Source of the DNA: a virus
DNA: 54,607 nt
Direction: 5' to 3' (one strand)
Virus record (IMG/VR): IMGVR_UViG_3300028027_001528
Coordinates: 1-54,607 of that record
The notes under the pieces were generated by a model, which made no database searches, was not told the DNA's origin, and worked only from the letters and a program-made list of their open reading frames with translations. The position numbers and the translations under genes are program-made. This document shows positions 9,468-50,412 of the stretch, one piece after another. Within the stretch, counting starts at the first letter, position 1, and each line of letters starts with the position of its first letter.

Positions 9468-12400
9468 ATGAATATATTTGACGCACACATATCAGGGTCC
9501 TTATCCGTATCAAGTTCGGCCGAAATCTCCAATAATTTACTCATTTCGGGTAATTTAACAGTACTTGGAACAATTAGTGGTAGTATTTCCGGTTCAATCA
9601 CAAATGCGGACAACGCAAATAAACTTGCGGGTAAAGGTGTAACTGAATTTGCAACCACAGGAAGTAATAATTTTAATGGTAATCAAACAGTTACAGGGTC
9701 AATAATTGCCACTCAAATATCAAGTTCTTTTACAGGTAGTGGTACAGGTTTATATGGAATTCCTGCAAGTGGGATTACAGGATTAAACCTATCTCAGATT
9801 GGGGAAGGGTCATCTACCGCCTCTATTTCAAGTACAAACGGTTTAAGGATTAATACAAACACCGAAATTACAGGAGCGTTAACGGTTACAGGACAAATAT
9901 CAGGTTCATTTAAGGGAGACGGTACAAATCTATACAATATTCCAGCAAGTGGAGTTACAGGTCTTAATTTAACACGGATTGCCGATGGAGCTACCACAGC
10001 ATCCGTTTCAAATACAAACGGATTTAGAATTAATTCAAATACCGAGATAACAGGAGCATTAAAATTAAATAAGGTAGATTTAGGTGATGATATTGTTGAA
10101 ATTACCCTTACAGATGGCGGTGGAAAATATTACATTAATGGTGCTAAAAATCCAAAGTTAGCGTTTACTAAAGGATTCAAATATAGATTTTATTATAATA
10201 ACAATAACACTCACCCATTACTTTTTTCTTTAACTGACGACGGTGAACATAATGGTGGAACAATATATACCACAGGAGTAACAACTAATGCTGACCCTTT
10301 TTATGTTCAAATTGAGATTACAGATGCAACTGCAACAACATTCTATTACTTCTGTGACCACCATGTTGGTATGGGTAATAGTATTTCAGTATATTCAGAT
10401 TTTTTAAGTGGTCAGGCTAGTGGTGACGTTATTGTTGTAGAACCAGGAATTTTAGCAACAACAGGATCAAATAATTTTATTGGTAATGAAAAAATAAGTG
10501 GGTCATTAGCTGTTACGGGGTCCGTTGGAATTAGTGGTTCACTTATTCTTACTGGTTCTGTCGATATTACAGGTTCGATGACTTTAAATGGTCAACCAAT
10601 TGGTACAGGTAAATTAGACGAATCAATATTTCAATCTTATACATCATCAAACGATAGTAGAGTATTGTCTTTAGAAAACTCAACGGGGTCCTTGAATACA
10701 TTTACGTCGTCTATTGACACAACAATTAAAAATAAACTTAATACAGAAACAGTCATATCTGGAAGCGTCCAAGTTATATTAACAGGAACCACAGGATATT
10801 CAACGTTTAGTTCAAGTATATCAACAAGTATTAGTTTAATATCTTCATCAGTTGCAACAACAACAAGTGATTTGAGTTCTAGTGTTAATTCTTTGAGTTC
10901 TAGTGTAAATTCTTTATCTTCATCAGTTGCAACAACAACTAGCGGACTAAGTTCATCTATTGCAACAACAACTAACGGTCTAAGTTCAAGTATCAATTCT
11001 TTAAGTTCTAGTGTTGCAACAATAACAAGTGATTTAAGTTCGATCATTGGTTCTTTAAGTTCTAGTGTCTCAACAACAACAAATACTTTATCTAGTTCAA
11101 TTGGAAGTCTTTCCTCTTCCGTGGCGACCACCACATTAGGATTAAGTTCCTCATTATCTAGTTCAATTGGAATTTTGAGTTCTTCGGTTGCATCAACAAC
11201 ACTTAATTTAAAGAATAGGGTCGACTCAATTGAAACAACTACAGGGTCGTTGAATTTATTTAGTAGTTCCATTAACACAACAATTAAATCAAAACTAGAC
11301 AGTGAATCGGTTATATCTGGTTCAGGACAAATTTTAATAACAGGAACCACAGGATATTCAACGTTTAGCTCATCTATTGCCACAACAACTAGTGGGTTGA
11401 GCTCCAATATTAGTTCTTTATCTTCATCTGTTGCAACAACAACAAGTGGTTTAAGTTCAAGCATTAGTTCTTTATCTTCATCTGTTGCAACAACAACAAG
11501 TGGTTTAAGTTCAAGCATCGCAATAACAACATCTGGATTAACAAGTACAATTACAAGTTTAAGTTCATCGGTTGCAACAACCACAAGTGGACTATCATCT
11601 AGTATTGGTTCTTTGTCTTCTTCAGTTGCAATAACAACATTAGGTACAAAAAATCGGGTAGATTCAATTGAATCAAAAACAGGTAGTTATGCAACAACCG
11701 GTAGTAATATATTTCAAGGTACACAAACTATTACAGGTTCATTATATATCTCCCAAGATTTAATTGTTGCTGGTTCGTCATCAATACAAAACATTAGTTC
11801 GTCAATTGTTAATATTGCGGATAATATTATAACAGTAAATGCACTTAATCCATCAGTTAGATTTGGTGGTTTGGCTGTTATTGATAGTGGTTCATCACCA
11901 CAAGTATCCGGATCAATGTTATTTGATTCGGTTAATAACCAATGGTTATTCGTTCACCAAAACCAATCGTCGGTAACATCATCTGTTTTATTAATGGGTC
12001 CTGAGACTTATAATAACCTCGGTAATGAAGCATATCTTATATTAAACCGTATACCCAAAGGTACTGGTATAGAACATTTGAATAATAGTAATATCACAGA
12101 TACAGGTACATTAGTTTCCATAAATTCAAATACAGAAATAACGGGTACATTAAATGTTACGGGAAATATTACTAACCCTAATATAAACGCAATTCAATCA
12201 TCAACTGGAAGTTTAAATACCTTTACATCGTCCTTACTAACGGCAATAGAATTAACAGGTTCAAATCTAACCGTTAGAGGCAACTTCTTAGTAAAAGGTA
12301 CAACAACAAACGTTAATACATCAACATTAGATGTTGATAATAATCTTATTAACTTAAATGGTAACGGAGCATCATTTGCAGGTATACGAATTAAAGATAC

Positions 12401-14828
12401 AACAGGTCCAAATTTAGTATCAGGTTCATTATTATGGGATTCTTCAAACGATTATTGGATTGCGGGTCAATTAGGATCAGAACAAAGATTAGTTAGAGAA
12501 ACAGAATTTAACAATGCCGTTACAAGAATAGGTAATGTTGAAACTTCAACAGGTTCATTGAATTCATTTACGAGTTCAATTAATACAACTATTAAAAATA
12601 GATTAAACACCGAAGGTGTTTTAAGTGGTTCTATTCAAGTTAATCATAATGCAACAACAAATTACGTTGCGAATCAACATATTGACCACACAACAGTTTT
12701 AATTACTGCGGGTAGTGGTTTAACAGGAGGGGGTGACATCTCATCAACTCGGACAATTAATGTTGGTGCTGGTAATGGTATAACAGTAAATGCTGATGAT
12801 ATTGCAATTGATACAGCGTCAGCGACATTTACCACAGGTGTTAAATCTAAATTAAATACAGACGGTGTTATTAGTGGTTCTGCACAAATAGATGGATCAC
12901 AAATAGGTTCCAATAAAACAATTACAATTGGTTCCACATCAACAACATTAGGAGGAACGTCAACATCACTTATAGGATTAACATCTGTAACATCAACAGC
13001 ATTTACAGGTTCACTACAGGGTGGAATATCAGGTAATGCTGCGACGGTTACAAATGGTGTTTATACAACTGGTGATCAAACAATTGGAGGTGCAAAAACA
13101 TTTAGTTCAAATATTACCAATAGTGCAACAGCTGATTGGTATATGTATGGCTTTGGTACAAGAGGCGCAAGCTCAGGACAATATGGTATGGGTCTTGCAT
13201 CTGATATTTCGAATAGAACATTATCATTCCATGTACCAAATTTAGCCGCATATTCAAATAGTGGAAACACACCTAAATTTGGTTGGTACTCTAATGGTTC
13301 CGCTGAATTAATGACACTACAAAGTGCCACAGGTAACTTAGTTGTTACAGGTACAATTAATGGTTTAACCGTATCAAGTGGAACAATATCATCAGGTACT
13401 TGGAATGGTACAGCAATCGCAAATGCTTATTTGGCAAATTCATCTTTTAATATTGGTACAACATCAATATCACTTGGTAGAGCATCTGCATCGCAAACCT
13501 TAACAGGAGTTTCAATTGATGGTAACGCAACAAGTGAGACATTATCTACCGTTACCACTAGGGGGGCTTCTACAAGTAATGCAATAACAATTAACTTTTC
13601 AACAGGTGGATTAAATTTAAATAGACCCTCAACATCAAATTATGTTGGTATATACTACCAAACAGGTGCATCTTCCAGATGGTTTATTGGATTAAGAGAA
13701 AATTTAACATCAAACAATTATATATGTTATAGTGAATCACTTGGTGCTGATGTGTTGACACTAAACCAAACGACAGGTGTTGCAACATTTGCTTATAATA
13801 TGACCGCCGCGAACTTTAGCGGAACACATAGTGGAGCATCGTCAAATACAAACACAGGAGATGAAACTTTAGCGAGAGTAAATGCGTTAGCGATAACCAC
13901 AGTCGGTACAATCACAAGTGGTACATGGAATGGTACCGCAATTGCAATTGCTAATGGTGGAACGGGTGCAACAACTGCAGCAAACGCAAGAACAAATTTA
14001 GGATTAGCAATTGGTTCCGATGTTTTAGCATATAGAACATTTGGTACTGCTGCAAATAGTGCAACAGGTGATTTTGCACCTGCGGCTGGTAGTACTTCTG
14101 TAACGACATTAGGTACCATCGCAACAGGTGTTTGGAACGGTAGTTCAATTTCAACAACATACACCGCAGCAAAAGTAACCGCAGTTAATGCGGGAACAGG
14201 TGTCGGTGTTGACACAACAACAGGTTCAGTAACTGTATCAATCGGTCAAGCCGTGGCAACATCATCAAATGTAACTTTTGCAAGAGTAACAACACCAAAA
14301 ATCGCATTTGAACGGAATGCAAATACTGCACATGGTCTAAGTTGGTATAGTTTTGGTACATACACGGCTTGGTGTGACTATATGGCTAATGGTGGGGCAA
14401 CAAGTACGGGACCAACAGGCAATATAACAGCATCAACGGGAACATATGTAACATCATGGGCTCGTCGTTTTTTTGTTGAAGATGCCAATACATATGGTTG
14501 GATATTTGAAAAAGGAGGTACCACAAGTACAACACCAACTGTTGTTGCGGAATTACGTTCATCAGATGGTTTATTTAGCACTGCTGGTGCAATATACTCA
14601 GCAGGTAGTTTAGTAAAAACTTCAGCTAACTCATCATATTCAACAACATTCAGTAGTGTATCATCAGTAACAGTTACACATAGTTTAGGAACAAAAGACG
14701 TGGCGGTATTTGTTTATGATAGTTCGGATAATATGTTCTGGCCATCATCAATTGTTACAACAAGCACATCTGTGGTTACAATAACTTTTGCATCTTCTAG
14801 GTCAGGTAGGGTTGTAGTTGTAAGATAA
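9468..14828 (+). CDS. Long repetitive tail-fibre/adhesin protein
   Basis: The 1786-aa protein is rich in Ser, Thr, Gly and Asn and is built of repeats typical of trimeric fibres. Repeated ITGSLxVTGxI beta-arcade units occupy roughly 20-220 and 345-400. Residues about 205-310 form a cupredoxin-like insert (H249, C296, H299, M302). A Ser/Thr coiled-coil-like stretch of SSLSSSVATTTSGL units covers about 445-730. Four copies of a 45-residue STGSLN-FTSSI-TTIK-KL block are interspersed, and the common phage-fibre motif GGTGATTAANARTNLGL lies near 1497. The last 60 residues form a beta-rich cap (THSLGTKDVAVFVYD). No S74 chaperone domain is seen. It should mediate host attachment. Confidence 0.88.
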   Translation: MNIFDAHISGSLSVSSSAEISNNLLISGNLTVLGTISGSISGSITNADNANKLAGKGVTEFATTGSNNFNGNQTVTGSIIATQISSSFTGSGTGLYGIPASGITGLNLSQIGEGSSTASISSTNGLRINTNTEITGALTVTGQISGSFKGDGTNLYNIPASGVTGLNLTRIADGATTASVSNTNGFRINSNTEITGALKLNKVDLGDDIVEITLTDGGGKYYINGAKNPKLAFTKGFKYRFYYNNNNTHPLLFSLTDDGEHNGGTIYTTGVTTNADPFYVQIEITDATATTFYYFCDHHVGMGNSISVYSDFLSGQASGDVIVVEPGILATTGSNNFIGNEKISGSLAVTGSVGISGSLILTGSVDITGSMTLNGQPIGTGKLDESIFQSYTSSNDSRVLSLENSTGSLNTFTSSIDTTIKNKLNTETVISGSVQVILTGTTGYSTFSSSISTSISLISSSVATTTSDLSSSVNSLSSSVNSLSSSVATTTSGLSSSIATTTNGLSSSINSLSSSVATITSDLSSIIGSLSSSVSTTTNTLSSSIGSLSSSVATTTLGLSSSLSSSIGILSSSVASTTLNLKNRVDSIETTTGSLNLFSSSINTTIKSKLDSESVISGSGQILITGTTGYSTFSSSIATTTSGLSSNISSLSSSVATTTSGLSSSISSLSSSVATTTSGLSSSIAITTSGLTSTITSLSSSVATTTSGLSSSIGSLSSSVAITTLGTKNRVDSIESKTGSYATTGSNIFQGTQTITGSLYISQDLIVAGSSSIQNISSSIVNIADNIITVNALNPSVRFGGLAVIDSGSSPQVSGSMLFDSVNNQWLFVHQNQSSVTSSVLLMGPETYNNLGNEAYLILNRIPKGTGIEHLNNSNITDTGTLVSINSNTEITGTLNVTGNITNPNINAIQSSTGSLNTFTSSLLTAIELTGSNLTVRGNFLVKGTTTNVNTSTLDVDNNLINLNGNGASFAGIRIKDTTGPNLVSGSLLWDSSNDYWIAGQLGSEQRLVRETEFNNAVTRIGNVETSTGSLNSFTSSINTTIKNRLNTEGVLSGSIQVNHNATTNYVANQHIDHTTVLITAGSGLTGGGDISSTRTINVGAGNGITVNADDIAIDTASATFTTGVKSKLNTDGVISGSAQIDGSQIGSNKTITIGSTSTTLGGTSTSLIGLTSVTSTAFTGSLQGGISGNAATVTNGVYTTGDQTIGGAKTFSSNITNSATADWYMYGFGTRGASSGQYGMGLASDISNRTLSFHVPNLAAYSNSGNTPKFGWYSNGSAELMTLQSATGNLVVTGTINGLTVSSGTISSGTWNGTAIANAYLANSSFNIGTTSISLGRASASQTLTGVSIDGNATSETLSTVTTRGASTSNAITINFSTGGLNLNRPSTSNYVGIYYQTGASSRWFIGLRENLTSNNYICYSESLGADVLTLNQTTGVATFAYNMTAANFSGTHSGASSNTNTGDETLARVNALAITTVGTITSGTWNGTAIAIANGGTGATTAANARTNLGLAIGSDVLAYRTFGTAANSATGDFAPAAGSTSVTTLGTIATGVWNGSSISTTYTAAKVTAVNAGTGVGVDTTTGSVTVSIGQAVATSSNVTFARVTTPKIAFERNANTAHGLSWYSFGTYTAWCDYMANGGATSTGPTGNITASTGTYVTSWARRFFVEDANTYGWIFEKGGTTSTTPTVVAELRSSDGLFSTAGAIYSAGSLVKTSANSSYSTTFSSVSSVTVTHSLGTKDVAVFVYDSSDNMFWPSSIVTTSTSVVTITFASSRSGRVVVVR
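11409..11516 (+). repeat. Perfect 54-bp direct tandem repeat, two copies
   Basis: Bases 11409-11462 and 11463-11516 are identical and encode the 18-residue unit ISSLSSSVATTTSGLSSS twice. Imperfect relatives of the unit extend from about 10830 to 11640. Recent unequal recombination or slippage is the simplest origin, and it would change the length of the fibre shaft. Confidence 0.9.
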
Positions 14829-14847: not shown

Positions 14848-15987
14848 ATGTTAAGAGAGAATGTTGAAGTTAGTGGTTCGTTAAATGTTAGTGGACAATA
14901 TATTATACCAAGAGGACCAAGAGCCAATAGACCTTCTAGTCCTGATATTGGATCATTATATCTAGAGGAATCAACTAGCGGTAGTTTTGTTGTTACGTAT
15001 ACTGCGTCTTCAAACTATGATGGTGGTTGGGAGCCAGTTGGTTCACAAGATACAGATAGAACTGGTTTCAAATATAGACAAGTGATTAATTTTTCTTATT
15101 TAGCTGGAGGTTATAAAAACTCCTCCCCTTGGAAAAATGTTCATAGAGTAACTAATTCAACAGACCAAACGGTTCACTTAGGTGAACTATTAGATTACCC
15201 AGCATCCTATACATCTGGAGCTTGTAGTAAAAGTATTTTATTTCTTTGGTCAACAAATACTGACGGAACTTTTAAAGGTGATAGTACCATCCATTCAACT
15301 TGGACAAGTGGTGTTAACATGGTAAATGAAACAGCATACGCTCATCAATCTAAATGGGATTTAGCGAATGCAAGAGATGACTGCGGAACTTTACATCAAG
15401 AAACTGAATTTGCTTGGATATTTGGTGCGGGAGTTGCCGCGGTTGAAAAATTCAATTTAACAAACGAAACAATGTATAGTACATACTATGGTGGACCATA
15501 CGTTTCAACACCAATGAAAACATCAATTACCGGTAGTGGACCATCAGGTGCATCGGGGTTCTCAGATGAGAATTATGGATATGGTTGGACACAACAAAGT
15601 GGTACAAAATTATTTTTTGCCAACGATACATTCACAAACAATCAACAATGGGGTGCTAGTGGACAACAGAAAGGTATTAGTTCAAAGGTGGGTAAAGGTT
15701 ATGCGGGAAATGAAGGAACATATAATGGGGGTTATAATTTAAGAAGATGGAATGTTTTTACTGAAACTAATTTAGGTAACGTTTCAAAACCGCACCCTAA
15801 CTGCGGAGAAGAAAACTTTACAATGGGACAAGATCATCAATATATGTTAGGTTGTTATGACGGTGCACAGGTAAATACTAGTTGGAAATTTTTATATTCA
15901 ACAGATACTGGAACGGTAAATCCTAGTGGATTAGCACCTGGTGTGAATGGAGGTACATCATCTGGACATTGTGGATGGAGAACATAA
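14848..15987 (+). CDS. Fibre-like virion protein, paralogue 1 of 3
   Basis: This 379-aa protein opens with a fibre-type strand (ENVEVSGSLNVSG) and a RANRPSSPDIGSLYLEEST linker. A large beta-rich domain follows with SYLAGGYK-SSPWKNVHR, LLDYPASYTSGAC, QQKGISSKVGKGYAG, GEENFTMGQDHQYMLG and SSGHCGWR at the C-terminus. The same domain, with these blocks, recurs in marine phage virion proteins that I recognise as a family without an assigned name. Two tandem paralogues follow. It is likely a receptor-binding tip or side fibre. Only about 20 bases separate it from its neighbours. Confidence 0.82.
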   Translation: MLRENVEVSGSLNVSGQYIIPRGPRANRPSSPDIGSLYLEESTSGSFVVTYTASSNYDGGWEPVGSQDTDRTGFKYRQVINFSYLAGGYKNSSPWKNVHRVTNSTDQTVHLGELLDYPASYTSGACSKSILFLWSTNTDGTFKGDSTIHSTWTSGVNMVNETAYAHQSKWDLANARDDCGTLHQETEFAWIFGAGVAAVEKFNLTNETMYSTYYGGPYVSTPMKTSITGSGPSGASGFSDENYGYGWTQQSGTKLFFANDTFTNNQQWGASGQQKGISSKVGKGYAGNEGTYNGGYNLRRWNVFTETNLGNVSKPHPNCGEENFTMGQDHQYMLGCYDGAQVNTSWKFLYSTDTGTVNPSGLAPGVNGGTSSGHCGWRT

Positions 15988-16005
15988 AATTTGTATTTAT
16001 AATAT

Positions 16006-17112
16006 ATGATACACGAAAATATTGAAATTAGCGGTTCATTAAGAACACAAGGAGTTACGAAACCCCCAATCGGGTCACGGGCAAATAGACCAGGTAGTCC
16101 CCAAACGGGATCGTTATATTTAGAACAAGCGGCTAGTGGTAGTTTTTTAATGGTTTATGTTGGTGTGAGTAACAACGATAGTGGTTGGGTTAGGGTATCA
16201 TCACAAGTAAATGCAAATGTTGGGTTTAAATTCAGACAAATTATTAACTATTCATACCTAGCCGGTGGATATAAAGATAGTTCACCATGGAAGAATGTTC
16301 ATAGAACAATAAATGCAACGGATCAAACAACACATTTAGGTGAGTTGTTGGACTATCCAGCATCATACACATCTGGAGCTTGTAGTAGGTATATCTTATT
16401 TATATGGTCAGTCAATACGGATAATGTGTGGAAATCTGCATCAGATATACACGGAACAACAACCGCGGCGGTTAATATGACCAATGAAACAAAGTACGCA
16501 CATAATGTAAAGTTTAATATAACAAACATAAGGTCAGATTGTGGTACCATGCATAAAGAAACCGCCACCGCCTACATTTTTAGTGGAGGTAATGCAACCG
16601 TTGAAAAATTCGATTTGAATACAGAAACAATTGCCACCGGTTTTAATTTAACAACAATAACCGGTAACGATGGTGGTAGTGCATTCTCCGATGAAAATTT
16701 TGGATATGGATGGACAAGTAGTGAAGGGGTTAAAATGAGTTTTGCGACAGAAACGTTTTCATCATCAACACAATGGGGTAACCACTCACAACAAAAAGGA
16801 ATTAGTTCAAAAGTTGGTAAGGGTTACGCGGGTGCCGATGGTTCTTATAATGGTGGATATGCTTTAAGAAGATGGAGTAATGCTAATGATACAAATATTG
16901 GAAACGTTTCCAAACCCCATCCAAACTGCGGAGAAGAGAATTTTACAATGGGACAAGACCACCAATATATGTTGGGGAATTACGATGGATTACAAAATAA
17001 TACAAGTTGGAAATTTAGTTACACAACAGACACAGGAACAGTAAACCCTAGTGGTTTAGCTCCTGGTGTTAATGGTGGAACGTCATCCGGACATTGTGGA
17101 TGGAGAGGATAA
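16006..17112 (+). CDS. Fibre-like virion protein, paralogue 2 of 3
   Basis: The 368-aa protein is colinear with paralogue 1: ENIEISGSL start, RANRPGSPQTGSLYLEQ linker, SYLAGGYKDSSPWKNVHR, LLDYPASYTSGAC, QQKGISSKVGKGYAG, GEENFTMGQDHQYMLG and SSGHCGWRG. The central portion around residues 130-230 differs most, including a shorter loop where paralogue 1 has TYYGGPYVSTPMK. Arg25 is encoded by CGG while the aligned Arg in both paralogues is AGA, which shows that CGG is read as Arg here. Likely role: alternative host-binding tip or multimeric partner of its paralogues. Confidence 0.82.
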   Translation: MIHENIEISGSLRTQGVTKPPIGSRANRPGSPQTGSLYLEQAASGSFLMVYVGVSNNDSGWVRVSSQVNANVGFKFRQIINYSYLAGGYKDSSPWKNVHRTINATDQTTHLGELLDYPASYTSGACSRYILFIWSVNTDNVWKSASDIHGTTTAAVNMTNETKYAHNVKFNITNIRSDCGTMHKETATAYIFSGGNATVEKFDLNTETIATGFNLTTITGNDGGSAFSDENFGYGWTSSEGVKMSFATETFSSSTQWGNHSQQKGISSKVGKGYAGADGSYNGGYALRRWSNANDTNIGNVSKPHPNCGEENFTMGQDHQYMLGNYDGLQNNTSWKFSYTTDTGTVNPSGLAPGVNGGTSSGHCGWRG

Positions 17113-42769: not shown

Positions 42770-44665
42770 ATGGAAGACGTAATAACTCAAAAATTCAACT
42801 ACGCCACAATTACCCTTTTTAAAGATTACTGTAAAATTGGGGATAAGAAGGAAACTATTAATTTTAATGGAGATTTGGATTTTTTTGAAGATGAGGAGGA
42901 CTTAACCCGAGAAACCACCCCAACAAAGAAACTCACTATTCTTTTTGGAGAACTAAGAAGACCTAAAGTTGGTCGAATGGTCGATTTTCATAAACAGATA
43001 GATAAAAGAAGGACGAGATATTTTTATGGTGATTCTGAGATTGGTGAAAGAGTCAATATGAATTATGCCATCTACAATTTCGAAACGAGAAACGATAGAC
43101 ATATTAAAAGACATTACGGTAATCCATTTAGTGAGATTACGGTAAATGCAATCGAACGTTCTATCAGACGACATGGAGATAAAGTTACCATTAAAATCTA
43201 TCGTCAACACAAACACAGACAATTTAACAGTATCTATTTTAAAAAATCAATGAGTGTTACTTCGGTTACCTTTAATTTAATTACAGGTAATTTCACAACA
43301 CTTAATATGACTAAGGTTGGTAAAAAAACCACCAAAACTTTTAGGACCAACAACTTCAACTATTTAGAACAATCATTTAGGGATGGTGGAATTATTGAGA
43401 TGCGTAAACCATTGGATAAGGATTCGGTTCTTTTGGATGAACACAATCAAACGTTCGATAATAAAAAATTTGTGTCAGTTTTAAATGACGTTTTCAATTT
43501 AAATCAACAAAACATAACATTCAACGGAATATGGTTTGCACAATTAATGTTAGAACGTTTTGTTGAATTAAAAAATATTAAAATTTGTAATGATTACAGT
43601 TATTGGATTAAGATATTTTACCCAACGGAAAAGTTTCTAAAGAAAAACGATAGAAAACTTATAGCATCCATTTTAGATATGTTCGGGATTAAGTCTAAAA
43701 TCACAATTAAAATAATGCATGAAAATAGTAAAATAGATATACAGTCATTAGCTAGATTATGTTATTATTTTGGTGACAACTATTCAAAATATATTGGTAG
43801 TATTGACCCTATTCATTTTTTGAATTCAAGATATGAGAATTCAAATAATTTTGGGGTTTCTAAATTTAACTTTGAGAAAGAATTTAAAAAAGAAAAATTT
43901 TTAATAACCAATATTGAAAAAGAAAATATTGTGAAGATTATTAATAGTTTAAAAATAGAAAATAAAGGATATGTAAGATTAACCAGTGAAAAGGAAACCA
44001 TTATTAATGAGAGATTTATTGGTGATTTACATGATCATTTTAGAATGATTGGAAAATTACGTGAATACGTACCTGATTTACATTTAAAATCAAAACACAT
44101 TAATGAGTTTAACGATGAGCATCATGAGGTATCCAAGATGATGAAATTAATTAAAAAGGGTTGGGAAGTTGAATATCAATTTGCAGATAAAATGGTATCG
44201 GATGTTGAATCACCTATTGATTTAAAAATAAATTTAGGTGATGATAAATTTGGGGACATTACATTCTACCCACACATATTAAAACGTGAGGAGGAATACG
44301 ATGAGGAAGGTAGGTTTATGCATCATTGTGTGGCATCGTATTCTGATAAAGAAAAATCGATAATTATTTCCATAAGAACTGAAAATAAACAAGATAGAGT
44401 TACCTGTGAATTTGATTGTCAAACTGGTACCTTAATCCAAGCTAGACATTTTTGTAATAACCAACCACCCGCAGATATTGAAATGGCGATTGATAAGTTA
44501 AAGGAAAAAACTAAAATCTATGCGAGGATGGGTATTCTACATTCATTAGATAAGAAAAAAGTACCTATTAAAATAAACGGTATTGAGGTGATGTCCGAAC
44601 ATAGAGAACCAAGAAGAATCGACGAATTGATTCAAGAAGAGGTAAGAAGACCAATCCCATTTTAA
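42770..44665 (+). CDS. PcfJ-like protein 1
   Basis: A 631-aa protein whose C-terminal part has the PcfJ-like block EGRFMHHCVASY (about 513-524), then IISIRTENKQDRVTCEFD and LIQARHFCNNQPPAD: conserved Cys and His, an Arg-rich strand and a Q-A-R...N-x-x-P end. The N-terminal 350 residues are basic and unrecognised. PcfJ was named from an Enterococcus conjugative plasmid; its biochemical role is not established. A shorter paralogue follows. Shared regions include KKNDRKLIASILDMFGIKSK against EKNDYKFLPSVLDNYGIKSK. Confidence 0.75.
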   Translation: MEDVITQKFNYATITLFKDYCKIGDKKETINFNGDLDFFEDEEDLTRETTPTKKLTILFGELRRPKVGRMVDFHKQIDKRRTRYFYGDSEIGERVNMNYAIYNFETRNDRHIKRHYGNPFSEITVNAIERSIRRHGDKVTIKIYRQHKHRQFNSIYFKKSMSVTSVTFNLITGNFTTLNMTKVGKKTTKTFRTNNFNYLEQSFRDGGIIEMRKPLDKDSVLLDEHNQTFDNKKFVSVLNDVFNLNQQNITFNGIWFAQLMLERFVELKNIKICNDYSYWIKIFYPTEKFLKKNDRKLIASILDMFGIKSKITIKIMHENSKIDIQSLARLCYYFGDNYSKYIGSIDPIHFLNSRYENSNNFGVSKFNFEKEFKKEKFLITNIEKENIVKIINSLKIENKGYVRLTSEKETIINERFIGDLHDHFRMIGKLREYVPDLHLKSKHINEFNDEHHEVSKMMKLIKKGWEVEYQFADKMVSDVESPIDLKINLGDDKFGDITFYPHILKREEEYDEEGRFMHHCVASYSDKEKSIIISIRTENKQDRVTCEFDCQTGTLIQARHFCNNQPPADIEMAIDKLKEKTKIYARMGILHSLDKKKVPIKINGIEVMSEHREPRRIDELIQEEVRRPIPF

Positions 44666-46197: not shown

Positions 46198-47172
46198 ATG
46201 AAATATTTCTCAGTATGTAGTGGAATTGAAGCCGCAACCGTGGCTTGGTCCCCATTAAATTGGAAATGTGAAGGTTTATGTGACTTCGCATCCTTTCCAC
46301 AAAAAGTATTATCACATCACTATCCAACAACCCCATTATTTTCAGACTTAACAAAATTAAACGAACATGAAAGTTACAGAAACATCAGCTTCGACCTATT
46401 GGTCGGAGGAACGCCTTGTCAATCTTTTTCCGATGCTGGACTCAACAAAGGAATGGATGATGTCCGTGGTCAACTCTCCCTTGAGTATGGAAGAATTCTT
46501 AAAGAAAAACGACCAAGATGGTTCATTTGGGAAAATGTCGAAGGCGTTTTTAAAAGCAAACACAAAAAGGCGTTATGTGAAATCATCTCCACTTTCACAG
46601 GTACTAACTTCAAAGCGGAAGACCTCGACAAACAAGGAATTGTCCAAGGAGAAGAATACTCCATCGCTTATAGGGTTTTCGACAGCCAATACTTCGGAGT
46701 TCCCCAACGACGCAAAAGAATCTTCATTGTTGGATATCGTGGAAACAATTGGAAAGTCCCATTCTCCGTACTATTTGAAGAAGGATGTTTTGAAAGCGTT
46801 AAAGAAAAGAATAGAATCAAGAGGGATGAGTACGCCAGAAATATTCTTGGAGAAATTAAACTCGCAGGTACAGTAACCAAATCATATGCACAAACATTAG
46901 TTGATGGATTTGGTAAAGTTTCCACGTCTAACTATTGGATTGATAATGATAGTATTAGAACCTTCACAGAAAGAGAATTGGAAAGACTTCAAGGATTTCC
47001 AGACGGTTACTTAGACTTTGAAGTTGCTGGTAAGAAACCATCATATTCAAGTGTTAAAGGTGCAATTGGTAACTCTATGACAGTCAATGTGATGTACTGG
47101 ATTGGTCAACGAATCAATTTTATTGACAATTATATTGAATCGCAAAAAGTTTTGAAATCTCATAAAAATTAA
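46198..47172 (+). CDS. DNA (cytosine-5) methyltransferase
   Basis: The 324-aa protein has the ordered C5-methyltransferase motifs: I SVCSGIEAATVAW, IV GGTPCQSFSDAG with catalytic C74, VI WENVEGV (E112), VIII PQRRKRIFIVG, IX TFTERELERLQGFPD and X GAIGNSMTVNVMYWIGQRI. The stretch between VIII and IX that usually holds the target-recognition domain is only about 80 residues. It would mark host or phage DNA, protecting it from restriction. A 169-codon second frame lies wholly inside motifs IV to the TRD, which may explain the unusual composition there. Confidence 0.93.
   Translation: MKYFSVCSGIEAATVAWSPLNWKCEGLCDFASFPQKVLSHHYPTTPLFSDLTKLNEHESYRNISFDLLVGGTPCQSFSDAGLNKGMDDVRGQLSLEYGRILKEKRPRWFIWENVEGVFKSKHKKALCEIISTFTGTNFKAEDLDKQGIVQGEEYSIAYRVFDSQYFGVPQRRKRIFIVGYRGNNWKVPFSVLFEEGCFESVKEKNRIKRDEYARNILGEIKLAGTVTKSYAQTLVDGFGKVSTSNYWIDNDSIRTFTERELERLQGFPDGYLDFEVAGKKPSYSSVKGAIGNSMTVNVMYWIGQRINFIDNYIESQKVLKSHKN
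46367..46876 (+). CDS. Nested out-of-frame ORF inside the C5-methyltransferase, probable overprinted gene
   Basis: A 169-codon ATG-to-stop frame runs in the +1 frame within the methyltransferase gene. Its C-terminal half (GFSTANTSEFPNDAKESSLLDIVE, then YYLKKDVLKALKKRIESRGMSTPE) matches a pattern I recall from many phage proteins: TSEWPNDAxxCSLSDVLE, YFLSxKAxxGILRRAEKRGK-LP. The N-terminal part (ETSASTYWSEE, GSFGKMS) matches the start of the same proteins. The methyltransferase frame over the last 90 bases is low in conserved motifs, so selection may favour the nested frame there. Function unknown; I cannot confirm the family without a search. Confidence 0.5.
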   Translation: MKVTETSASTYWSEERLVNLFPMLDSTKEWMMSVVNSPLSMEEFLKKNDQDGSFGKMSKAFLKANTKRRYVKSSPLSQVLTSKRKTSTNKELSKEKNTPSLIGFSTANTSEFPNDAKESSLLDIVETIGKSHSPYYLKKDVLKALKKRIESRGMSTPEIFLEKLNSQVQ

Positions 47173-49516: not shown

Positions 49517-49798
49517 ATGCCAGAATTTACAACCGAGGTTGACATCGACCCAAGTGAGTTCGTTGACTCATGTAGCAACACAGAATTAAAAAGATTAGTT
49601 GAAATCTTAGAAGAAGACGGATACATCCAACCTTCGGAAGAAAAAACAAGTAAAAACAATGGTGTTCGTAGACCAAACGTTAACGACCAAACATTTTGGA
49701 GTGGTCTTGAAAAATTAGCGAAGTGTAGAGATTTATTATCAATCGAAGAGGAGAACTTCATCAACAATCTTGCGAACAAATTTAAACACTTACGTTAA
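49517..49798 (+). CDS. Conserved small phage protein, 93 aa
   Basis: The acidic product starts FTTEVDIDPSEFVDSCSNTELKRLVEILEEDGY, a pattern I recognise in hypothetical phage proteins. The C-terminal half is helical (SGLEKLAKCRDLLSIEEENFINNLANKF). Function unknown. It overlaps the next methyltransferase gene by one base (TAATG). Confidence 0.7.
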   Translation: MPEFTTEVDIDPSEFVDSCSNTELKRLVEILEEDGYIQPSEEKTSKNNGVRRPNVNDQTFWSGLEKLAKCRDLLSIEEENFINNLANKFKHLR

Positions 49799-50412
49799 TG
49801 AAAGTGTTAGAATTATTTGCAGGTAGTCGTTCCGTTGGAAAGATTGCTGAGAGTTTAGGGATGGAAGTATTCTCATCCGATTTAATTGAGTTTGAAGGTA
49901 TTCATTACCCAATTAGTATATTGGATTTTGATGTTACCAAAGTTCCATTTCGACCAGATATAATTTGGGCATCACCTCCATGTACTGGATTTAGTGTTGC
50001 AGCAATCGGACATCATTGGTCTGGAGGTAAAGGCGCTTACGTACCTAAAACAGAAACTGCAAAGTTAGGTATTGAATTGGTTAAGAAGACATTAGAAATA
50101 ATTAATCATTTCCAACCAACATTTTGGTTCATGGAAAACCCAAGAGGAGTTCTACGTAAATTGGATGTTGTTAAAGGGTTAAATAAACAATCGGTAACCT
50201 ATTGTCAATATGGTGATGAAAGAATGAAACCAACTGACATATGGACGAACAGTATTATGTGGACACCAAAACCAATGTGTAAGAACGGAGATCCTTGTCA
50301 CGTTGCAGCGCCAAGAGGTAGTAGAACAGGAACACAGGGTCGAGCCAATGCTTACGAAAGAAGTAAGATACCGGCGGACCTATGTTTAGAAATATTAAAA
50401 AGTTGTATATGA
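49798..50412 (+). CDS. C5-cytosine methyltransferase-like protein, short form
   Basis: The 204-aa protein has VLELFAGSRSVGK (motif I), WASPPCTGFSVAAI with the PPC catalytic block (C62), and FWFMENPRGVLRK at motif VI, then TYCQYGDERMKPTDIWTN. It lacks motifs IX and X and a TRD, so it is a short phage variant, possibly inactive on its own or acting on a nucleotide base. Other members of this short family occur in many phages. The substrate is uncertain. Confidence 0.72.
   Translation: MKVLELFAGSRSVGKIAESLGMEVFSSDLIEFEGIHYPISILDFDVTKVPFRPDIIWASPPCTGFSVAAIGHHWSGGKGAYVPKTETAKLGIELVKKTLEIINHFQPTFWFMENPRGVLRKLDVVKGLNKQSVTYCQYGDERMKPTDIWTNSIMWTPKPMCKNGDPCHVAAPRGSRTGTQGRANAYERSKIPADLCLEILKSCI

Follow-up and report, generated by a model that had tools for sequence, protein, structure and literature searches.

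The window analyzed here, a 54,607-nucleotide stretch of viral DNA (IMG/VR virus record IMGVR_UViG_3300028027_001528), contains a gene for a C5-cytosine DNA methyltransferase within which a second reading frame, shifted by +1, stays open for 169 codons. Is this nested frame a gene or a by-product of the enzyme's codons, and if it is a gene, what might its product do beside the enzyme that is encoded around it? A preliminary description, made from the letters alone, had proposed either an overprinted gene or a hidden domain swapped into the TRD position of the enzyme.

The methyltransferase gene lies in DNA with a G+C content of ~30%, and its product matches PF00145 (E = 4.5e-50), TIGR00675 (above the cut-off), and PHROG 116 (E = 5.2e-73). 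The translation of 46198-47172 contains motifs I (FSVCSGIEAA), IV (GGTPCQSFS), VI (ENVEG), VIII, IX, and X (GNSM), with the catalytic PCQ, the ENV, and the QxRxR all present, and the PF00145 match spans the overlap in the enzyme frame. Because motif IX is read in the enzyme frame, the window enzyme does not take it from the nested protein. The idea of a swapped domain was not supported for the window, as the enzyme frame continues through motifs IX and X, while the nested ORF has a start and a stop of its own (Table 1). Two genes upstream of the methyltransferase is a gene for a PcfJ-like protein (42770-44665; PF14284, E = 7.4e-13), and a second, short C5-methyltransferase-like gene (49798-50412; 204 amino acids; PHROG 757, E = 3.6e-32) has SPPC instead of the usual PCQ.

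Table 1. Features of the methyltransferase locus and of the ORF nested in it (positions in the window)
Feature	Position	Strand	Basis
C5-cytosine DNA methyltransferase gene, 324 amino acids, complete; host of the overlap	46198..47172	+	PF00145, TIGR00675, PHROG 116
Two stop codons in the nested frame, closing it just upstream of the nested ATG	46349-46351 and 46358-46360	+	offsets 151 and 160 of the methyltransferase gene
Nested gene (almost certainly coding), 169 amino acids, +1 frame, entirely within the methyltransferase gene	46367..46876	+	conservation in 80/80 loci, third-position diversity, stop deficit
Predicted helical segment near the N terminus of the nested protein (residues 24-48)	46436..46510	+	predicted helices 24-36 and 41-48, moderate confidence
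Methyltransferase motif VIII, QYFGVPQRRKRIF; identical bases read in +1, NTSEFPNDAKES	46687..46725	+	both translations; block conserved in both frames
Predicted helical hairpin at the C terminus of the nested protein (residues 135-168), where conservation in the family is highest	46769..46870	+	predicted helices 139-151 and 158-168
Methyltransferase motif IX, RTFTERELERLQGFPDGY, enzyme frame, downstream of the nested gene	46957..47010	+	enzyme translation

The coordinates, length, and frame of the nested ORF in the preliminary description proved accurate. The ORF runs from the ATG at 46367 to the stop codon at 46874-46876, in +1 relative to the methyltransferase ORF, and its translation contains the blocks that had been quoted (STYWSEE, SFGKMS, TSEFPNDAKESSLLDIVE, and ESRGMSTPE); SEFPNDA is indeed enzyme motif VIII shifted by one base. 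The G+C content of the overlap is 0.38 to 0.40, versus 0.25 to 0.35 in its surroundings. Chance does not account for the length of the nested ORF. In the methyltransferase gene the longest +1 stretch without a stop is 171 codons, compared to at most 84 in 26 other larger genes of the window. Synonymous permutation of the gene's own codons placed a mean of 5.1 stops in the nested frame, where none is observed (probability of zero, 1.5e-4), and recoding from the codon usage of the non-overlapping part of the gene gave a mean of 7.7 stops and no open frame in 20,000 trials. The third frame has 11 to 18 stops across the overlap.

Codon-position diversity and permutation served to gauge selection on the two frames. 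Searching with the enzyme protein yielded 80 viral loci (82 to 100% identity, 51 different DNA sequences), every one of which retains the nested ATG, the length of 169 codons, and the stop, without gaps. Among 26 representatives, the third-position heterozygosity of the enzyme is 0.365 upstream of the overlap, 0.125 inside it, and 0.376 downstream, a threefold drop whose edges coincide with the nested start and stop. Among fourfold codons whose residue does not change, 11 of 28 are variable inside the overlap versus 30 of 30 outside (p = 1.4e-6), as are 34% versus 90% of other degenerate codons (p = 1.3e-12), the p-values being indicative only because the sequences are related. Aligned in this way, the related viruses keep the nested frame free of stops, and the synonymous sites of the enzyme are suppressed inside the overlap. 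The frame is open beyond what the host protein needs, and the depression of synonymous variation in the host gene is limited to the overlap. From these patterns, ORF 46367-46876 is almost certainly a coding, overprinted gene.

Searches by tblastn with nested proteins found matches in many phages, plasmids, and genomes. The relatives that the preliminary description had named (TSEWPNDA..CSLSDVLE, GILRRAEKRGK-LP) do exist; nearly all of those found are read in +1 within a C5-methyltransferase ORF, and the few exceptions are split or frame-swapped forms of such an enzyme. The nested match lies in the +1 frame entirely inside a methyltransferase ORF in 266 of 271 loci. Since the 271 loci had partly been fetched by the nested frame, two further sets were picked by the enzyme frame alone. 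In the first, of the type found in phage MM1 (43 to 99% identity, ~135 codons compared), 74 of 75 loci have no +1 stop, whereas 6.8 are expected per gene, and at identical fourfold codons the third base is shared in 66% of comparisons within the overlap versus 39% outside it. In the second, the relatives of enzyme L146, none of the 74 loci has a +1 stop (4.0 expected), and a hairpin motif typical of the nested family is found in the +1 frame of 49 of 52 nonredundant loci. The sole MM1-type locus with +1 stops, L350 (IMGVR_UViG_2744054885_000002), contains 31 of them across the aligned region, and the length of its enzyme match, 1647 nt, points to an insertion within the overlap.

As a negative control, 24 C5-methyltransferases of bacterial genomes, most of them sampled evenly across classes, contained 121 +1 stops versus 117 expected, and the nested domain was present in only three of them (L354, L355, and L357), all from genomes already known to be carriers. 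Permutations that preserve the enzyme, applied across loci, gave 4 to 8 stops per locus and lost the HMM score. In the per-locus permutation test, eight loci failed to exceed every null, those with a negative overlap length having been computed with the wrong enzyme envelope; the enzyme-chosen sets are cleaner.

The preliminary description had further suggested that, past motif VIII, constraint may be stronger on the nested frame, and this holds in the wider family only. Over 27 residues of the hairpin in the L146 set, the mean identity is 72% in the nested frame versus 50% in the enzyme, so near the C terminus the nested frame is the more constrained of the two; hairpin conservation in loci fetched by a pattern in the hairpin segment is biased, and the L146 set serves as the unbiased repeat. 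In the window's own clade the two frames evolve at similar speeds, with a mean identity across the overlap of 0.867 for the enzyme and 0.831 for the nested protein, and after motif VIII they are about equally constrained (0.83 nested versus 0.88 enzyme).

In a tree of motifs I to VIII, the enzymes bearing the nested frame form one group (one change versus ~16 in shuffles), whose supporting branch has an SH-aLRT value of 94, with long branches that leave the details unsure. Acidobacteria, Proteobacteria, and Firmicutes are represented in this group together with marine, lake, and gut phages, and carriers of the nested gene range from phage P7, a relative of P1, to gut, soil, and lake phages. 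The P1-type dam gene of P7 (AF503408), annotated as a bifunctional methyltransferase, contains a nested ORF with 165 open codons (L434:890-1384) that ends in SSKACAGILRRAEARGRKLPD. A nested ORF is also seen in many P1-sized plasmids of Enterobacteria.

Initiation signals were found within the enzyme codons. In 36 loci that encode Lys-Glu-Trp or Lys-Asp-Trp just upstream of the nested start, Lys is AAG in all 36, versus 195 of 547 elsewhere, and Glu is GAG in 31 of 35, versus 297 of 759 elsewhere; this choice spells AAGGAG before a TTG or ATG nested start. Members of the MM1 group have AAAGGAG or a close variant a dozen bases ahead of the ATG, again with both signals inside enzyme codons. Judged by this codon choice, ribosome-binding sites upstream of the nested start are under selection in many relatives. 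A Shine-Dalgarno sequence was looked for before the window's own nested ATG and none was seen, as would be expected if the host belongs to the Bacteroidota. Synonymous suppression confined to the overlap, the lack of stops in enzyme-chosen loci, the ribosome-binding sites, and the negative control together lend strong support to the overprinted gene that had been proposed. The nested frame is coding, conserved, and tied to one enzyme clade, with selected initiation signals.

In two loci the nested domain is joined to parts of the enzyme. The C5-methyltransferase of Anaerovorax sp. IOR16 (L271; 2652-3314 and 2962-4617) is split into two polypeptides that overlap in different frames. The first carries motifs I to VIII. 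The second, with a possible GTG start in the +1 frame, has the nested domain at its N terminus, followed by a long variable region and motifs IX and X. In Faecalibacterium phage FP_Toutatis (L436:1308-1922 and 1439-2728), the two frames have exchanged partners inside the overlap, so that one ORF has motif IV followed by the nested hairpin at its C terminus and the other has motifs VIII to X. Joined forms occur only elsewhere; in the window both frames are complete and separate.

Could the nested frame be open without being translated from its own start? That it is an untranslated by-product of conserved enzyme motifs and codon use would agree with the origin of SEFPNDA in motif VIII and with the finding that part of the +1 similarity follows the enzyme codons, synonymous permutations retaining up to 39 bits in one case. 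However, the same permutations introduce stops and lose the family signal, ordinary C5-methyltransferases with equal motifs have stops at the chance rate, the suppression starts and stops with the nested ORF, and in the wider family the hairpin is more conserved than the enzyme across the shared bases. The bacterial control and the permutation nulls rule this explanation out, and we give it next to no probability. Constraint at synonymous sites alone is no proof of coding, and a signal or structure in the RNA or DNA might also impose it; but the constraint extends over ~500 bases and matches the positions of the start and stop codons, only one of the frames avoids stops, none is seen where five to eight are expected (a result repeated in two distant sets), and the start codon and Shine-Dalgarno positions are conserved, which makes such an element extremely improbable. 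Programmed frameshifting, by which an N-terminal methyltransferase piece would be joined to a nested C terminus, finds some encouragement in the frame-swapped ORF of FP_Toutatis, which shows that a joined product is tolerated. Yet the two nested-frame stops just upstream of the ATG argue against entry from upstream, and with the nested start kept throughout the close viral loci and preceded by a selected Shine-Dalgarno sequence in relatives, this route is very unlikely.

The nested protein has a mass of 19.2 kDa and a pI of 9.6. AlphaFold2 models of the window protein and of a relative have mean pLDDT values of 57 and 62, and only the C-terminal hairpin is confident (about 77 to 86 in the window protein, 96 to 97 in relative L162); the family pattern at this hairpin is YFLSxxACxGILRRAEKRGKxLPxxLxxAL. 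The predicted product is a small and basic protein, disordered in part, whose C terminus forms a helical hairpin. The window protein has no significant match in Pfam, NCBIfam, or PHROG, a profile search of the PDB gave no match, and Foldseek found no significant fold for the predicted structures. The two best Foldseek matches in a viral library, a cytosine methyltransferase and an 81-amino-acid protein of mycobacteriophage Thibault, may be the same domain in other phages. Distant nested relatives match PHROG 16143 (8.1e-13) and PHROG 1008 (7.3e-6), for which the window's own protein is below significance; both families are named "DNA methyltransferase," and nested frames have therefore been clustered there under the name of the enzyme.

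A copy of the nested domain away from a C5-methyltransferase gene was not established, either in the 271 loci or among the matches to PHROG 1008, of which L419 to L422 were left aside. The preliminary description had held that a lack of homologues outside frame-shifted methyltransferase translations would count against a gene. Formally the result comes close to this, as the domain invariably goes with the enzyme gene, yet the codon-level evidence shows that the frames are coding, so the absence of independent homologues is the wrong yardstick.

Streptococcus pneumoniae phage MM1 (DQ113772) has an arrangement similar to that of the window, with orf14 inside orf13, in the +1 frame and in the same place; the record names orf13 and orf14 "C5 methyltransferase alpha/beta subunit," orf14 being the beta subunit. 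A profile comparison of orf14 with the window family gave a probability of 98.8% over 117 columns, part of which may be supplied by shared enzyme codons. The window ORF thus shares frame and position with the MM1 ORF and encodes a homologous product, although the MM1 protein is distant in sequence and stops before the GILRR hairpin. We found no published test of the function of the MM1 beta subunit, and "beta subunit" is the name in the record only.

In the methyltransferase M.EcoHK31I, the small subunit is encoded in another frame within the gene of the large subunit. M.EcoHK31I (YGGCCR) is a C5-methyltransferase of two polypeptides, the smaller of which holds motif IX (PMC3404938). The window pair, likened to it by description and not by sequence, differs in that motif IX is present in the large enzyme and absent from the nested protein. 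M.AquI is a split C5-methyltransferase with motifs I to VIII in the alpha and IX and X in the beta polypeptide (PMC3404938). The Anaerovorax enzyme is likewise split after motif VIII, its second polypeptide additionally beginning with the nested domain, whereas the window enzyme is unsplit. An out-of-frame HNH endonuclease, the ShiLan element, lies in a mycobacteriophage methylase (PMC11855218) and is similar in that a second gene occupies another frame of a phage methylase gene. It is, however, a homing element inserted in some phages, while in the window there is no insertion, the nested protein matches neither HNH nor any other Pfam family, and the overlap covers conserved motifs of the enzyme.

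We propose that the nested gene is a member of an old family found alongside one clade of C5-methyltransferases of mobile elements. Its protein would be translated from its own start codon on the shared mRNA, by internal initiation or translational coupling, and would bind the surrounding methyltransferase as an accessory (beta-type) subunit that aids its action on DNA or tunes its activity or target choice; nesting would keep enzyme and partner inherited and made together. That the nested protein binds the enzyme and acts in this way is more probable than not. We infer it from the split Anaerovorax enzyme, where the nested domain forms the N terminus of the motif IX-X half, and the FP_Toutatis fusion, the lack of a separate copy, the MM1 annotation, and M.EcoHK31I also favor it. 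Because any overprinted gene should stay linked to the gene around it, the constant linkage is weak evidence for a physical partnership.

Viral genes that arose by overprinting commonly play accessory roles in their own right, and it is possible, though we lean against it, that the gene is real but that its product acts independently of the enzyme, for instance as a small early protein that binds DNA or protein in host takeover or counterdefense. The basic character of the protein would suit such a role, and the window enzyme, which carries all motifs, may need no partner and could work alone. Against independence, the nested domain is fused to the recognition half of the enzyme in Anaerovorax and to the motif IV part in FP_Toutatis, and none of the 271 loci has a copy apart from the enzyme gene. 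Extending the accessory-subunit reading, we give about even weight to the broader view that the clade of phage, prophage, and mobile-element C5-methyltransferases, including P7 dam, constitutes an obligate two-gene unit. Its +1 accessory subunit would be ancient, kept for the life of the clade, would have shaped the codons of the enzyme, including a ribosome-binding site, and in some lineages would have become fused to another part of the enzyme at the time the enzyme split.

Overprinting in phages is already known, and a nested "beta subunit" is annotated in at least one phage. As far as the literature found goes, the generality of the nested gene across a whole clade of mobile C5-methyltransferases, P7 dam among them, would be new; no account of the nested family was found in a search that did not cover the primary M.EcoHK31I and MM1 papers. 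The nested gene is almost never annotated, and a second protein has thus been overlooked in hundreds of sequences. Orphan C5-methyltransferases are common modification genes of phages. If their genes encode a second conserved protein, part of the unit has escaped both enzyme studies and annotation pipelines, and two genes have been silently lost whenever the enzyme was knocked out or recoded. We regard this as an unusually broad case of overprinting in bacteriophages and a tractable system for the evolution of two proteins on one DNA; P7 provides a standard laboratory model for it, as the related P1 presumably does.

Longer ORFs that overlap another type of C5-methyltransferase seem to make up PHROG 1008, as in two loci matching it (L424 and L427). 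In the former, a +1 ORF of 264 codons (L424:1363-2154) overlaps this different enzyme and perhaps represents a second overprinted gene family, related or convergent. Elsewhere in the window, an adjacent pair of genes (14848-17112) matches one family, PHROG 1417, apparently through tandem duplication, and a 315-codon ORF without a PHROG match (10637-11584, minus strand) lies antisense within the gene for a 1786-amino-acid protein (9468-14828).
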